DNA from: Leeuwenhoekiella sp.
GTDB lineage: Bacteria > Bacteroidota > Bacteroidia > Flavobacteriales > Flavobacteriaceae
Assembly: GCA_002708845.1 (NCBI GenBank)
Contig: PAPI01000036.1
Span: forward strand, 88,409 to 152,408
Length of the DNA stretch: 64,000 nucleotides
Direction of reading: 5' to 3'
This document shows, one piece after another, positions 4,423-55,726 of this stretch. The notes beneath the pieces were generated by a model. The model did no database searches. It was given only the letters and a program-made list of their open reading frames with translations, and was not told the origin of the DNA. Numbering within the stretch: position 1 is the stretch's first letter; each line of letters begins with the position of its first letter. A program made the translations under genes and the position numbers.

Positions 4423-7400
4423 ATGAGCACAAAGTTCCCTGAATATAAAGGACTTGACCTGCCAAAAGTGGCCGAAGAAATTTTAGCCTACTGGCAGGAA
4501 AACGAAATCTTTGAAAAGAGTATCTCAACCCGCGAAGGTAATGAGCCCTACATCTTTTTTGAAGGTCCGCCATCTGCAAACGGAATGCCCGGTATTCACC
4601 ACGTGATGGCACGTGCGATTAAAGATATTTTCTGTCGTTTTCAAACCCAAAAAGGGAAGCAGGTAAAGCGTAAGGCCGGTTGGGATACTCACGGACTTCC
4701 GGTAGAGTTGGGTGTTGAGAAAGAACTCGGCATTACCAAAGAAGACATCGGTAAAAAAATAAGCGTTTCTGAATACAACGAAGCCTGTAAGAATGCAGTA
4801 ATGCGCTACACCGATGTGTGGAACAACCTTACTGAACAAATGGGGTATTGGGTAGATATGGAAGATCCCTACATTACCTACAAGCCCAAATACATGGAAA
4901 CGGTATGGTGGCTGCTTAAAAACATTTATGATAAAGGCCTTATTTACAAAGGCTACACGATACAACCTTATTCTCCTAAGGCAGGAACTGGTTTAAGTTC
5001 GCACGAACTCAACCAGCCCGGTACCTATCAGGATGTGACTGATACTACAGTAACAGCATTTTTTCCCCTGGCCCCCCAAGGGGGAAATGTGGAACGTTTC
5101 AAAAAGGCTTTCAAAATAAGTAAAAGCTCCCCCTTGGGGGGCGGGGGGGGATTTGGTTTTCTTGCCTGGACGACCACGCCCTGGACTTTGCCTTCTAACA
5201 CCGCGTTGACGGTTGGGAAAAAGATCGATTATGTATTGGTTAAAACCTTTAATCAGTACACGTTTGAGCCTATTCAGGTGGTTTGTGCTAAAGCTTTGGT
5301 GGATAAACAATTCTCTAAAAAATTCTTCGTTGCTGAAAGTGAGGAAGATTTTACCAATTTCAGCGAAAAAGATAAAAAGATCCCATATCAAATCGTAGCT
5401 GAATGCAAAGGCAGCGACCTGCTTGAGTTGCGTTACGAGCCGGTGATTGATTATGTGCAACCGCATGACAATCCGGAAAATGCATTCCGGGTGATTGCCG
5501 GGGATTTTGTAACTACTGAAGATGGTACCGGTATCGTGCATACCTCACCCACTTTTGGTGCAGACGATGCTATGGTAGCCAAACAGGCAGAGCCACCCGT
5601 ACCGCCTATGCTTGTTAAAGATGAGAACGGAAACTTAGTACCGCTTGTAGACCTTCAGGGTCGTTTTCGTCCTGAGTTGAAAGAATTTGGAGGTAAATAC
5701 GTTAAAAACGAGTATTACGACGACGGTGAAGCACCCGAAAAGAGTGTTGACGTTGAGATTGCGATTAAATTAAAGGAAGAAAACAAAGCCTTCAAGGTGG
5801 AAAAATACGTGCACAGTTATCCCAACTGCTGGCGTACCGATAAACCTATTTTATACTATCCGCTAGATTCTTGGTTTATCAAAGTGACCGATGTACGTGA
5901 TCGTATGCACGAGTTAAATTTAGGCATCAACTGGAAACCTAAAGCGACCGGAGAAGGCCGTTTCGGCAACTGGCTGGCTAATGCCAACGACTGGAATTTA
6001 TCACGCTCGCGTTACTGGGGAATTCCGTTGCCAATCTGGAGAACAGAGGATGGCAAAGAGGAAATCATCATTGGTTCGGTTGCCGAACTAAAAGAAAAAA
6101 TCACCGAAGCGATAAATGCCGGAGTGATGGATGCCGATCCGTTTGCAGATTTTGTGCCGGGCGACATGAGTGAAGCGAATTATGATTTAATCGATCTGCA
6201 TAAAAATGTGGTAGATGAGATAAAACTGGTTTCGCAAAGCGGAAAAGTTATGCGTCGCGAAGCAGATCTGATCGATGTGTGGTTTGACAGCGGAAGCATG
6301 CCGTACGCACAATGGCATTACCCGTTTGAAAACAAAGAGAAAGTAGAAAAAACCTGGCGTAAAGCCGATTTTATCGCAGAAGGGGTTGACCAAACCCGTG
6401 GATGGTTTTATACCCTTCACGCGATTGCTACAATGACTTTTGACGATGTAGCGTATAAAAATGTAGTCTCAAACGGACTTGTACTCGACAAAAACGGACA
6501 AAAAATGTCGAAGCGTTTGGGTAATGCAGTAGATCCGTTTACGACGCTTAATACCTTTGGTCCAGATGCGACCCGCTGGTATATGATCAGCAATGCAAAC
6601 CCATGGGATAACCTGAAGTTTGATCTGGACGGGATTACTGAAGTACAACGTAAATTCTTCGGTACCCTTTATAATACCTATTCATTCTTTTCGCTTTATG
6701 CGAATTTGGATAATTTCAGCTATGCTGAAGAAGAAATTGCCTGGAAAGACCGCCCGGAGATTGACCGCTGGATTCTTTCAGAATTAAATACATTGATCGA
6801 TCAGGTAGATGCTTTTTACGCCGATTATGAGCCTACCAAGGCTACGCGTGCGATTTCAGATTTTGTGCAGGAAAACCTGAGTAACTGGTTCGTGCGTTTA
6901 AGTCGCCGCCGTTACTGGAAAGGCGAGTATGCGCACGATAAAATTTCGGCCTATCAAACTTTATATACCTGTTTGATTACGGTTGCAAAACTGGGCGCTC
7001 CGGTAGCTCCATTTTATATGGATCGTTTGTATAAAGACCTGAACGGATTAACCGGTCGCGAAGCTTCAGAAAGTGTACATTTGGCAGATTTTCCGGTGAG
7101 TGATGCTTCACAAATAGACCGCAGTCTGGAACGCAAGATGCAAAAAGCACAGACCATTTCATCGTTAACGCTTTCGCTTCGTGCAAAGGAAAAAATAAAG
7201 GTAAGGCAGCCTTTACAGCGTATTATGATCCCGGTTTTGGATGAGAGTCAGCGGGAAGAAATACTTTCGGTACAGGATTTGATAAAATCTGAGGTAAATG
7301 TCAAGCAAATTGAACTGATTGATGATGCTTCGGGAATCCTGGTGAAGAATATTAAACCCAATTTTAAGGTGTTGGGACCTCGTTTTGGAAAAGATATGAA

Positions 7401-7863
7401 GCTGGTAGCCGGTGCTATAACTGCTATGAGTGCCAAAGATATAGCCACTATTGAAAATGAAGGAAAAATCACGGTGGACATTAATGGAAAAAGTGTTATT
7501 TTGGCGCCCGAAGATGTGGAAATCACCTCTCAGGATATTGAAGGTTGGCTAGTTGCAAGCGGCGGCGGACTCACCGTTGCACTCGATGTAACGCTAACCG
7601 AAGAATTGAAAAATGAAGGTATTGCCCGCGAACTGATTAATCGCATTCAAAACCTGCGTAAAGACAGTGGTTTTGAAGTAACCGATAAGATTGAAGTACA
7701 ATTACAGCGTGACGGAAAGGTCGAGAAAGCCGTTAGCGAGAATTTAGACTATATAAAAATGGAAACGCTCACCGCAAAACTCGACGTTGCAGAGCAGGTT
7801 ACTAACGGAATAGCTATTGCTTTTGATGATGTAGAAACAATATTGGCTATTAAAAAACAGTAA
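4423..7863 (+). CDS. ileS: Isoleucyl-tRNA synthetase, long form, with an embedded repeat
   Basis: Class I aminoacyl-tRNA synthetase that charges tRNA-Ile in the cytoplasm. It has 1146 residues, the long form usual in Bacteroidota. The HIGH-type motif is GMPGIHHVMAR near residue 57 and the KMSKS-type motif is GQKMSKRLGN near residue 694. The CP1 editing domain is marked by WTTTPWTLPSN near residue 248, followed by the anticodon-binding domain and a long C-terminal region. Residues about 215-243 are encoded by a GC-rich inverted repeat (5065-5150) that looks like an in-frame insertion just before the WTTTPWT editing motif. The frame is intact, so the protein is probably active. A -7 box lies 24 bases upstream and the dksA-like gene follows after 6 bases. 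Confidence 0.96.
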   Translation: MSTKFPEYKGLDLPKVAEEILAYWQENEIFEKSISTREGNEPYIFFEGPPSANGMPGIHHVMARAIKDIFCRFQTQKGKQVKRKAGWDTHGLPVELGVEKELGITKEDIGKKISVSEYNEACKNAVMRYTDVWNNLTEQMGYWVDMEDPYITYKPKYMETVWWLLKNIYDKGLIYKGYTIQPYSPKAGTGLSSHELNQPGTYQDVTDTTVTAFFPLAPQGGNVERFKKAFKISKSSPLGGGGGFGFLAWTTTPWTLPSNTALTVGKKIDYVLVKTFNQYTFEPIQVVCAKALVDKQFSKKFFVAESEEDFTNFSEKDKKIPYQIVAECKGSDLLELRYEPVIDYVQPHDNPENAFRVIAGDFVTTEDGTGIVHTSPTFGADDAMVAKQAEPPVPPMLVKDENGNLVPLVDLQGRFRPELKEFGGKYVKNEYYDDGEAPEKSVDVEIAIKLKEENKAFKVEKYVHSYPNCWRTDKPILYYPLDSWFIKVTDVRDRMHELNLGINWKPKATGEGRFGNWLANANDWNLSRSRYWGIPLPIWRTEDGKEEIIIGSVAELKEKITEAINAGVMDADPFADFVPGDMSEANYDLIDLHKNVVDEIKLVSQSGKVMRREADLIDVWFDSGSMPYAQWHYPFENKEKVEKTWRKADFIAEGVDQTRGWFYTLHAIATMTFDDVAYKNVVSNGLVLDKNGQKMSKRLGNAVDPFTTLNTFGPDATRWYMISNANPWDNLKFDLDGITEVQRKFFGTLYNTYSFFSLYANLDNFSYAEEEIAWKDRPEIDRWILSELNTLIDQVDAFYADYEPTKATRAISDFVQENLSNWFVRLSRRRYWKGEYAHDKISAYQTLYTCLITVAKLGAPVAPFYMDRLYKDLNGLTGREASESVHLADFPVSDASQIDRSLERKMQKAQTISSLTLSLRAKEKIKVRQPLQRIMIPVLDESQREEILSVQDLIKSEVNVKQIELIDDASGILVKNIKPNFKVLGPRFGKDMKLVAGAITAMSAKDIATIENEGKITVDINGKSVILAPEDVEITSQDIEGWLVASGGGLTVALDVTLTEELKNEGIARELINRIQNLRKDSGFEVTDKIEVQLQRDGKVEKAVSENLDYIKMETLTAKLDVAEQVTNGIAIAFDDVETILAIKKQ
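5065..5150. repeat. GC-rich inverted-repeat element embedded in the ileS reading frame
   Basis: The left arm GCCCCCCAAGGGGG (5071-5084) is the exact reverse complement of the right arm CCCCCTTGGGGGGC (5129-5142). The arms enclose about 44 bases of AT-rich sequence, and each arm is itself partly palindromic. The right end continues as an eight-base G run. The element has the size and architecture of a small palindromic repeat. It is read through in frame as a Gly/Pro/Lys-rich loop of IleS. A related 92-bp element lies at 32645-32736. Confidence 0.8.
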
Positions 7864-53523: not shown

Positions 53524-53757
53524 TTAATTACGTTCCCCTCCGTGGGAGGGGTCAGGGGAGGAAAAGGCTAAAATATCTCCCGGCTGACAGTCTAGTGCCT
53601 TACAAATCGCTTCCAGCGTTGAAAAGCGTACGGCTTTGGCTTTACCTGATTTCAGGATCGAAAGATTGGCTTCGGTAATGCCTACGATTTCCGCCAGCTC
53701 TTTGCTTTTCATATTGCGGTCTGTCAATACCTGATCTAAGTTGATGATGATGGGCAT
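53524..53757 (-). CDS. Small Cro/C1-type HTH regulator (YozG-like), C-terminus encoded by a repeat
   Basis: A 77-residue XRE-type DNA-binding protein. The helix-turn-helix is ELAEIVGITEANLSILKSGK, followed by the conserved RFSTLEAICKALDCQPGDIL that normally ends such proteins. The extra C-terminal residues SSPDPSHGGERN are encoded by a palindromic repeat copy (53533-53561), so the natural end was probably near residue 64. It starts 2 bases after the DUF2975 gene; HTH/DUF2975 pairs are a recurrent arrangement. It is the likely ligand of the palindromic operator at 54399-54415. Confidence 0.85.
   Translation of the reverse strand: MPIIINLDQVLTDRNMKSKELAEIVGITEANLSILKSGKAKAVRFSTLEAICKALDCQPGDILAFSSPDPSHGGERN
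53533..53561. repeat. TCCCCTCC...GGGGAGG repeat inside the HTH regulator gene
   Basis: TTCCCCTCC, a short spacer and GGGTCAGGGGAGG form an interrupted inverted repeat. It matches 54580-54608 in layout and in most positions. It encodes residues 66-75 of the regulator. Confidence 0.8.
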
Positions 53758-54443: not shown

Positions 54444-54499
54444 TAATTTTTAGTGAAATATTTTTCATTTGCATCTTTCGAAGAGGTCTGGGTAGGATG

Positions 54500-54507
54500 T
54501 ATCTTTG
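54500..54507 (+). promoter_or_regulatory. -7 box directly before bioF
   Basis: TATCTTTG is a perfect match ending 4 bases before the ATG at 54512. A TTTC at 54476-54479 lies 20 bases upstream as a weak -33. The box overlaps the codons that follow the alternative ATG at 54497, which speaks against that start. Confidence 0.5.
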
Positions 54508-54511
54508 TGGG

Positions 54512-55726
54512 ATGCTGCCCAAAAAATTACAGGACAAACTCGATACGCGTAAAGAGAATTACGCCCTGCGCGAATTAGGTTCCCCTCCACTGGATGGGTT
54601 AGGGGAGGTCATTGATTTTTCTTCAAACGATTACCTGGGTTTTTCTAAAAACGAGACCGTTTTTCTTCGTGCCAGCGAAATCTTAGAAGAACAAAACCTG
54701 AAACATAATGGAGCTACCGGTTCGCGTTTGCTTTCGGGGAATCACAAAATTTACGATCTGACCGAAGAGTATATCGCAAAAATACACGGAGTTGAAGCGG
54801 CTTTGATTTTTAACTCGGGTTATGATGCGAATGTGGGTTTTTTCAGCTGTGTGCCTCAGCGGGGTGATGTGATTTTGTATGATGAATTTATACACGCTAG
54901 CATTCGTGATGGGATTCAGATGAGCCATGCAAAGGCCTATAAATTCAAGCATAACGATTTGGAAGATCTGGTGTCGAAATTGTCACATCGAGCGCAGTCG
55001 AGAAGTCAAGTAAGTACAGATCAAAGCGAAATTTACGTAGTCACCGAATCGGTGTTTTCTATGGATGGTGATAGTCCCGATCTTAAAGCCATGAGCGATT
55101 TATGCGAAAATTACGGGGCCTATTTTGTAGTTGATGAGGCCCACGCCCTCGGTGTGTTTGGTTCAGGGCTGCTTGATGAACTGGCTCTTGGTCCTCAAGT
55201 TTTCGCCAGGTTGGTGACTTTTGGGAAAGCCATGGGCTGTCACGGAGCCGCTATTTTGGGCTCTTACCAACTCAAGTCTTATCTGATTAATTTCGCCCGC
55301 AGCTTGATTTATACAACGGGTTTGCCGCCGCATAGTGTAGCAACCATCTTAGCTTCTTATAAACAGCTTACAAATGTCACCCCGAGCGCAGTAGAGGGGC
55401 TTTCCGACGAAGTGAAAAAGCTTAATGAAATTATTCAATTTTTCCGTAAAGAAATCAAAATTAAAAAGCTTCAGCCGTATTTTATTGCCAGCGATTCAGC
55501 GATTCAATCGGCAATAATTTCCGGAAATGAGCGGGTTAAAGCCATTTCGCGGAAGCTTATAGAAAGCGGTTTTGATGTCAAAGCAATTCTTTCGCCCACG
55601 GTGCCTGCGGGACAGGAGCGCTTGCGGTTTTGCTTGCACAGTTACAATACGCAGAGCGAAATAAAAAGCGTTCTGGAGCTTCTGGAAGAATTCTTAGAAA
55701 ACTTGTCTGCTGAGAAGGAGAAGTGA
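54512..55726 (+). CDS. bioF: 8-amino-7-oxononanoate synthase, with three embedded repeats
   Basis: PLP enzyme that joins pimeloyl-CoA or pimeloyl-ACP with alanine in biotin synthesis. It has 404 residues from MLPKKLQDKL; an ATG at 54497 would add five residues. Signatures are DFSSNDYLGFS, HNGATGSRLLSGNH, DEAHALGVFG and the Schiff-base Lys in TFGKAMGCHGAAILGS (about residue 239). Three segments encoded by genomic repeats interrupt the normal sequence: residues 23-33, 157-167 and 288-298. All are in frame and lie between core motifs, so function is probably kept. It heads the biotin region. Confidence 0.94.
   Translation: MLPKKLQDKLDTRKENYALRELGSPPLDGLGEVIDFSSNDYLGFSKNETVFLRASEILEEQNLKHNGATGSRLLSGNHKIYDLTEEYIAKIHGVEAALIFNSGYDANVGFFSCVPQRGDVILYDEFIHASIRDGIQMSHAKAYKFKHNDLEDLVSKLSHRAQSRSQVSTDQSEIYVVTESVFSMDGDSPDLKAMSDLCENYGAYFVVDEAHALGVFGSGLLDELALGPQVFARLVTFGKAMGCHGAAILGSYQLKSYLINFARSLIYTTGLPPHSVATILASYKQLTNVTPSAVEGLSDEVKKLNEIIQFFRKEIKIKKLQPYFIASDSAIQSAIISGNERVKAISRKLIESGFDVKAILSPTVPAGQERLRFCLHSYNTQSEIKSVLELLEEFLENLSAEKEK
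54580..54608. repeat. TCCCCTCC...GGGGAGG repeat inside bioF
   Basis: TTCCCCTCC, a short spacer and GGGTTAGGGGAGG have the same layout as the copy at 53533-53561. It encodes the stretch GSPPLDGLGE just before the conserved IDFSSNDYLG motif of BioF. Confidence 0.8.
54981..55010. repeat. TGTCACNNCGAGCGCAGT repeat, copy 1 in bioF
   Basis: TGTCACATCGAGCGCAGTCG, then AGAAGTCAAG. The TCGA...TCGA arms flank a GCGCAG centre. It encodes a Ser/Arg/Gln-rich stretch (SHRAQSRSQVST) that looks inserted between the FKHNDLEDL and EIYVVTESVFSMDG parts of BioF. Confidence 0.75.
55375..55403. repeat. TGTCACNNCGAGCGCAGT repeat, copy 2 in bioF
   Basis: TGTCACCCCGAGCGCAGTAG, then AGGGGCTTT. CCCC/GGGG arms flank GAGCGCAGTAGA. 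It shares TGTCAC--CGAGCGCAGT with copy 1. It encodes VTPSAVEGLS in the BioF C-terminal half. Confidence 0.75.

Follow-up and report, generated by a model that had tools for sequence, protein, structure and literature searches.

The window analyzed here is a stretch of 64,000 nucleotides from Leeuwenhoekiella sp. (assembly GCA_002708845.1, contig PAPI01000036.1). It carries ileS, the gene for isoleucyl-tRNA synthetase, at 4423–7863 on the forward strand as a frame of 1146 aa that is open throughout and whose product matches TIGR00392 with 982 bits (cut-off 621). Within this frame lie two palindromes in inverted order. The left one (5065–5085, reverse orientation, minus strand) is a CCCCC-TT-GGGGGG hairpin with a G-rich tail to its left and is read as PLAPQGG; the right one (5128–5154, forward orientation, plus strand) is a CCCCC-TT-GGGGG hairpin followed by a G tail and is read as SPLGGGGG. 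The spacer that separates them (5086–5127, plus strand) is read as NVERFKKAFKISKS and was classed by eye as KAF-type. Each arm forms a small CCCCC-TT-GGGGG hairpin by itself with the G-rich tails facing outward, and the two arms (5065–5085 and 5128–5148, with 42 nt between them) are also complementary to each other at 19 of 21 bases, with 15 bases exact. The insert as a whole is translated as FPLAPQGG-NVERFKKAFKIS-KSSPLGGGGGFGFL and ends, in the CP1 loop, four residues before the editing motif AWTTTPWT (A248–T255; 5164–5187, plus strand), which lies just 3′ of it and is invariant in 38 aligned IleS sequences. The original prediction had described an inverted-repeat element with exact 14-base arms inside the ileS frame; the element is indeed there, bounded by inverted repeats, and its arms are exact over 15 bases rather than 14. 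The run of eight G that had been pointed out is real as well. That this segment of ileS is a short hairpin-shaped DNA insert, carried in frame and read as protein, is well supported by its sequence.

The strong RNA hairpin that had been suggested for the element agrees with the predicted fold of 5040–5175, which came to −59.4 kcal/mol compared with −44.9 (sd 4.2) in shuffles, none of the 200 shuffles being as low; in the corresponding DNA fold of the insert region, 1 of 200 shuffles was as low. A scan for a hairpin plus G tail gave no matches when run on 10 base-shuffled versions of the window. This was a loosened form of the scan, the stricter first version having missed the window's own ileS pair. 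Among the ileS rows compared, an inverted partner upstream was found at p≤0.01 in 16 of the 42 element-bearing rows and in none of the 45 rows that lack the element (two of the 44 element rows, L082 and L084, were too near contig ends and were left out). An AF2 model of IleS (38 sequences, mean pLDDT 83) places residues 217–242 between two strands (202–216 and 243–250), with a short helix at 222–229 within the insert loop and the sole segment of pLDDT below 50 at residues 237–240. The loop expected of a structure prediction was thus obtained, albeit at low confidence.

The ileS site in related genomes

The ileS gene was found in all 60 genomes searched, including that of the window, and the insertion site was read in 50 of them. 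Within the genus, the site could be read in 12 of 13 genomes, all but G012, whose ileS match is partial. Presence of the insert is patchy among these 12: three of them carry it, namely the window, G003 (with a single palindrome) and G007 (with an inverted pair), and it is absent from nine of the 11 congeners. A clean gap at residues 215–243 had been anticipated for relatives, but the nine insert-free congeners have a different, native loop of about 20 residues there, such as KVVEDETYKASPLATFEGTKYLM. Because ileS measures 3438 nt in the window and 3408 nt in eight of the insert-free congeners (3414 nt in the ninth), and because the native loop is present in these genomes, the insert replaces that loop, with indistinct borders and a net gain of 10 residues relative to the eight. 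The claim that about 29 residues had been added beside WTTTPWT was therefore right about the position and not about the amount. Since most congeners lack the insert and related copies lie elsewhere in the genome (see below), the residues are neither common to all relatives nor confined to this gene, and the view that an essential gene absorbed a palindromic element in frame has held up.

Across the 50 sites read, palindromes were found at the CP1 loop in five (four by scan and one, L044, by eye only), and one further ileS (L112) carries a palindrome at another place. When GTDB genomes were scanned more broadly for the hairpin core at 5–35 nt before DNA for WTTTPW, 53 stretches were recovered, of which 40 are Bacteroidota-type IleS, assigned by record titles to Flavobacteriales, Chitinophagales, Cytophagales and Bacteroidales; the other 13, all from other phyla, look like chance matches. 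With respect to individual rows, L092 duplicates L017 and was dropped, L068 is doubtful, L073 and L084 come from one assembly, and L074 (Flavobacterium davisii), whose frame is broken in the record, was counted at the DNA level only. The contig of L109 is filed as a Limnohabitans MAG, yet its IleS is Flavobacterium-like, and it is probably misbinned. The strict ileS pattern is rare (three of 397 genomes of the window's family), and the sequence of the insert varies widely between species. Spacers of KAF type also separate the palindromes in other Flavobacteriaceae-type IleS (L026, L058, L061, L063, L077, L081, L097 and L099).

Related palindromes in the same genome

The 13-base core of the palindrome has two exact occurrences in the genome, both in the ileS insert, and seven more with one mismatch, at least one of which (C5) is probably due to chance. 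Copies had been expected elsewhere in the genome, and related palindromes were found in intergenic positions, in frame in leuS and, likewise in frame, close to the N-terminal end encoded by a HemN-like radical-SAM gene. Backwards-pattern controls on this genome gave no matches in two scans and four, as against ten real ones, where one mismatch was allowed, so some of these ten matches are due to chance; with a broader pattern, the genome and the control yielded one match each.

In leuS (C9), two palindromes in the same inverted order as in ileS lie in frame about 375 nt apart, on either side of a DUF559 domain (PF04480, 131.9 bits) and immediately ahead of TTRPDT in the CP1 loop. A third in-frame palindrome of the same gene, NLSPVGGDREGD, is located in its second loop, and a second DUF559 of this genome is fused to hemD, again with related palindromes. 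The CP1 loops at WTTTPW in IleS and at TTRPDT in LeuS are presumably homologous; a profile comparison of IleS with LeuS aligned over the N-terminal part only. An AF2 model of LeuS with its DUF559 had a mean pLDDT of 43, with values mostly of 71–87 in the DUF559 part (about 311–420), and was not used for the host part.

Several further repeats were observed along the way. Within the window, an HTH regulator (PF13443) encoded at 53524–53757 on the minus strand ends in SSPDPSHGGERN, a C-terminal tail read from a palindrome of the same type (hairpin 53535–53565). The bioF-like gene at 54497–55726 (plus strand, PF00155) reads SPPLDGLGEV before DFSSNDYLGF, perhaps a decayed palindrome, and also holds an in-frame copy (54982–55007) of another dispersed repeat, GTCACATCGAGCGCAGTCGAGAAGTC. 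At G000:C14 45662 and 53008, like palindromes lie 3′ of two genes, and the similarity of the flanking sequence at both suggests a duplicated unit.

DUF559 domains embedded in proteins of Bacteroidota

DUF559 was present in 43 of 99 genomes comprising that of the window and its relatives. The domain itself is widespread, with a match in two of 14 named control genomes. Of 296 genomes sampled from the phylum, 126 had a match to a profile of the embedded forms, and open frames of at least 800 aa with DUF559 gave at least 33 matches in at least 31 of the 296. From 30 loci fetched, the 22 with frames over 400 aa were read. Their hosts were MetH (4), the CP1 loop (4) and second loop (2) of LeuS, RecG (3), HsdR (3), methylmalonyl-CoA mutase (2), UvrD-type helicase (2), an Eco57I-type protein (1) and an M23 peptidase (1). 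Each of these kinds is confirmed by Pfam for at least one locus, and the remaining loci were named by motif. With HisD, HemD and IleS, which come from other loci, the Pfam-confirmed hosts are IleS, LeuS, MetH, RecG, HisD, HemD, HsdR, two UvrD-type helicases, the mutase, Eco57I and M23.

The palindromes are concentrated around these domains. One was found within 260 nt of DUF559 for 30 of 43 domains (13 of 24 for stand-alone frames), and density near DUF559 was about 21-fold higher than further off (63 palindromes in 22,360 nt vs 14 in 107,087 nt). The expression used to locate DUF559 succeeded at 43 of 52 loci and missed the domain in L163, L171, L176, L178, L182–L185 and L193, of which L163, L178 and L182–L185 were read separately. 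Among 39 embedded elements examined, the scan identified a right palindrome in 25, and 23 of these have a chosen host motif, which starts no more than nine residues from the palindrome in 18. The centres of the right palindromes fall on the first, second and third codon positions in 9, 16 and 0 cases (n=25, rows not independent), while those of the left palindromes do so in 6, 15 and 4 cases (n=25); left palindromes are thus read in all three phases and lend no support to a fixed frame at that end.

The sites in MetH, RecG and LeuS are each reused across genera and families. Moreover, inserts consisting of palindromes only occupy sites that hold DUF559 elsewhere, as in the CP1 loop of ileS, the CP1 loop of leuS (L141, by eye) and the second loop of leuS, where seven of 11 aligned leuS have the palindrome only and L219 and L221 have DUF559. 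At the exact ileS site of the window, a Bacteroidales MAG (UBA5266; L062) carries a whole palindrome-DUF559-palindrome element, its left palindrome recognized by eye. The leuS of G014 (L182) contains an in-frame DUF559 remnant (44 bits) that has lost the IIEVDGxxH-type motif and at which no palindrome was seen; domestication or decay are both possible. No protein-splicing (Hint) domain was detected by Pfam in the 15 hosts scanned that have a PF04480 match. At L179 (G062), an array of alternating palindromes spaced about 70–110 nt apart adjoins a DUF559 gene, and six phage records have a DUF559 match, the best at 44% identity. The existence in Bacteroidota of a family of DUF559 elements that are in frame and bounded by palindromes is well supported by these comparisons of sequences. 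The original prediction makes no mention of it: in the sequences, palindromes like those of ileS bound in-frame DUF559 both in the leuS of this same genome and in further core genes of Bacteroidota.

Phylogeny and divergence of the embedded domains

A tree built from 47 DUF559 rows groups together the 17 domains embedded in LeuS, MetH, RecG, HisD and IleS (branch support 99/93) and leaves 24 stand-alone and six HemD-type forms outside the embedded group; on this tree, the 10 LeuS copies may have one origin or several. In Leeuwenhoekiella, the leuS site is occupied in eight of 13 genomes, that of the window included, and empty in five, and alignment of four full-length empty congeners revealed an in-frame gap at the site. 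On a tree of the leuS tail, the occupancy label needs five changes compared with a mean of 4.8 for shuffled labels, and only two changes are forced by well-supported branches. Other repeats were noted in the leuS loops of this genus. Where the CP1 loop is free of DUF559, it contains an unrelated repeat, GTCACTTCGAGCGCAGTCGAGAAGTC, in G002 (L138) and an unrelated AATTCAGAATTC-type repeat in G007, G010 and G003 (L137, L139 and L140), and the second loop of G006 and G012 (L135 and L166) contains a further in-frame type, QVQHDE..RHSELDSESH, which we take to be known from other genomes. Because the CP1 loop of the four empty congeners holds two unrelated repeats, tolerance of this loop could cause part of the recurrence.

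Silent sites were compared in the four of 15 leuS pairs that have closely related inserts. In three of the four, silent divergence of the insert was below that of every equal-length window of the host gene (insert vs host: 0.164 vs 0.438 for G000–G009, 0.301 vs 0.634 for G004–G001 and 0.458 vs 0.588 for G001–G005). The fourth pair, G004–G005, had no excess similarity (0.547 vs 0.594, with 216 of 815 host windows as low). In the flanks of the insert in these four pairs, no clear co-conversion tract was observed. The dN/dS of the insert was 0.08–0.11, which indicates that the leuS DUF559 domain is under constraint. For the other 11 pairs, insert dN (0.38–0.53) was far above that of the host (0.09–0.18), which means that different element lineages lie at one leuS site.

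A possible origin of the ileS insert

The reading we lean toward, with restrained confidence, is that ileS 5065–5150 represents a stub, lacking the nuclease, of a family of homing-like elements of Bacteroidota that are embedded in proteins. A full element consists of a reverse palindrome, an open DUF559 frame without a stop of its own and a forward palindrome; it is placed in frame in a host gene, in many cases with only a few codons between it and a conserved motif that follows, and is seemingly translated with the host protein. The nuclease may cut unoccupied alleles in or close to this motif, and repair from the occupied allele would then copy the element in, a homing-like process that could carry it to the corresponding site of other species. 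Hosts would tolerate the element since the frame is kept and the insertion lies in a loop. Because no protein-splicing domain was found, the element would stay in the mature protein, unlike an intein. Later the nuclease may decay or go, leaving a palindrome-bounded stub such as the insert in ileS. Homing of the DUF559 elements is something we infer from these patterns. Descent of the ileS insert from a nuclease-bearing copy is likely, although its spacer does not resemble DUF559 and the full ileS element is a single case in a MAG of another order. A further point against the reading as a whole is that the scan detected no palindrome for 13 of the 43 DUF559 domains. More tentatively, and as a proposal that we hold possible without yet counting it probable, selfish elements may home without splicing throughout the phylum, as an in-frame palindrome-bounded DUF559 cassette that inserts before conserved catalytic motifs of essential enzymes and is translated as a domain they permanently gain. 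Such a cassette would pass from species to species at identical sites and eventually break down to palindromic stubs like the one in ileS.

Other explanations have to be weighed against this one. We think it rather unlikely, but by no means negligible, that REP/RPE-like repeats are scattered by another enzyme and survive only as in-frame copies in harmless loops of essential genes, with DUF559 as a passenger or another user of the palindromes and no homing. The occurrence of palindromes between genes fits such a process, as does the unrelated content of the leuS CP1 loop in empty congeners (GTCACTTCGAGCGCAGTCGAGAAGTC in G002, AATTCAGAATTC-type in G003, G007 and G010), and the core of GTCACTTCGAGCGCAGTCGAGAAGTC is found at eight places in the genome with up to one mismatch, one of them in frame in the bioF-like gene. 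It is harder to reconcile with the dense clustering of palindromes at DUF559, the grouping of the domains from five host genes in the tree, the use of the same MetH, RecG and LeuS sites across genera and families, and leuS inserts that are younger than the host gene in three of four close pairs; nor did PF01797 have a match in the genome of the window. An improbable alternative is that palindrome, KAF spacer and palindrome make up an independent short element that spread among Flavobacteriaceae ileS alleles by homologous recombination and does not descend from DUF559 elements. KAF-type spacers are found in the IleS of the window, of G007 and of several Flavobacterium-type and Confluentibacter genomes and not in DUF559 elements, and there is weak mosaicism in the window's ileS, 5173–5472 being nearest to L021 or L018 and the far end to L016 or L017. 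The DUF559 element of L062, however, shares the palindrome kind, the orientation, the site and the right-hand reading phase (SPLGG) with the insert of the window.

Retention for a function, either as an RNA hairpin that tunes ileS translation or as a loop that alters CP1 editing, would suit the strong predicted hairpin and the adjoining editing motif, but we consider it very unlikely given that the insert is present in only three of the 12 readable genomes of the genus, that its sequence is very different between species and that it includes the one segment of the IleS model with pLDDT below 50. The least probable account, to which we give almost no weight and which was already disfavoured, is chance or artefact, the loop being just variable and Gly/Pro-rich or the assembly being wrong. 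The length of the loop is naturally variable and chance matches to the core do occur outside Bacteroidota (13 of 53 stretches), but an inverted partner at p≤0.01 was seen in element-bearing rows only, independent genomes carry the element, and the frame is open.

To our knowledge, how protein-coding palindromes move has been an open question since their description in Rickettsia. Inserts that share their end type and some of their sites with an embedded nuclease provide a candidate enzyme for this movement and render the question testable. If the preferred reading of the ileS insert as a stub is correct, a selfish gene could reside within an essential protein and never be spliced from it, the element family would shape loops in core enzymes, tRNA synthetases among them, and DUF559 fusions in annotation would be explained. 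Among the best-ranked open-access search results, no title described DUF559 embedded in core genes or these palindromes; because most subscription papers and bioRxiv preprints fall outside that coverage, novelty is provisional.

Comparison with known systems

In a comparison with structures, DUF559 matched 3hrl (4.3e-19) and, weakly, 3r3p, a 'Mobile intron protein' (phmmer E 3.3e-4), which we take to be I-Bth0305I. I-Bth0305I is carried by a phage intron. It is an EDxHD/Vsr-like enzyme with weak sequence likeness to DUF559, and it differs in being intron-borne, whereas the DUF559 described here forms part of the host protein and has palindromes on either side. The DUF559 residues E20, D48, E59, D61 and H65 are invariant in 13 of 13 sequences, and a DUF559 gene is placed in the EDxHD/Vsr-like homing endonuclease family in one report (PMC9403480). 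Inteins with homing endonucleases likewise put a nuclease in frame near catalytic motifs of conserved genes, and inteins and homing genes coexist in empty, full and decayed states, as is the case here, where a palindrome-only state is found in addition; unlike inteins, the elements described here have no detected splicing domain, and the insert is apparently kept in the protein.

REP/REPIN sequences with RAYT likewise form hairpins in inverted pairs, some of them inside genes. By eye, however, neither GTAG nor CTAC, the REP/RAYT tag, occurs within 5060–5155, and the elements are associated with DUF559 rather than with RAYT. A Y1/RAYT transposase was rejected as the mover, since PF01797 had no match in the genome of the window (assembly 98% complete) and control matches in five of 14 named genomes. 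MITEs are similar in being short, with inverted-repeat ends and without a mobility enzyme of their own, but here the part of a putative autonomous partner falls to a DUF559 nuclease frame, with similar ends in leuS, and not to a transposase. The closest parallel drawn in the original prediction was to the Rickettsia palindromic elements, which according to two papers are short palindromic DNAs in frame in unrelated protein genes (PMC10969869, PMC3733652) and have a CGTC tag at one end (PMC3733652). The comparison is apt insofar as palindromes are likewise in frame in unrelated protein genes of one genome, and it does not extend to plain membership, neither CGTC nor GACG being seen by eye within 5060–5155. 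The elements described here belong to another phylum, have GC-rich arms and a G tail, and include a long form that bears a nuclease inside the host frame.
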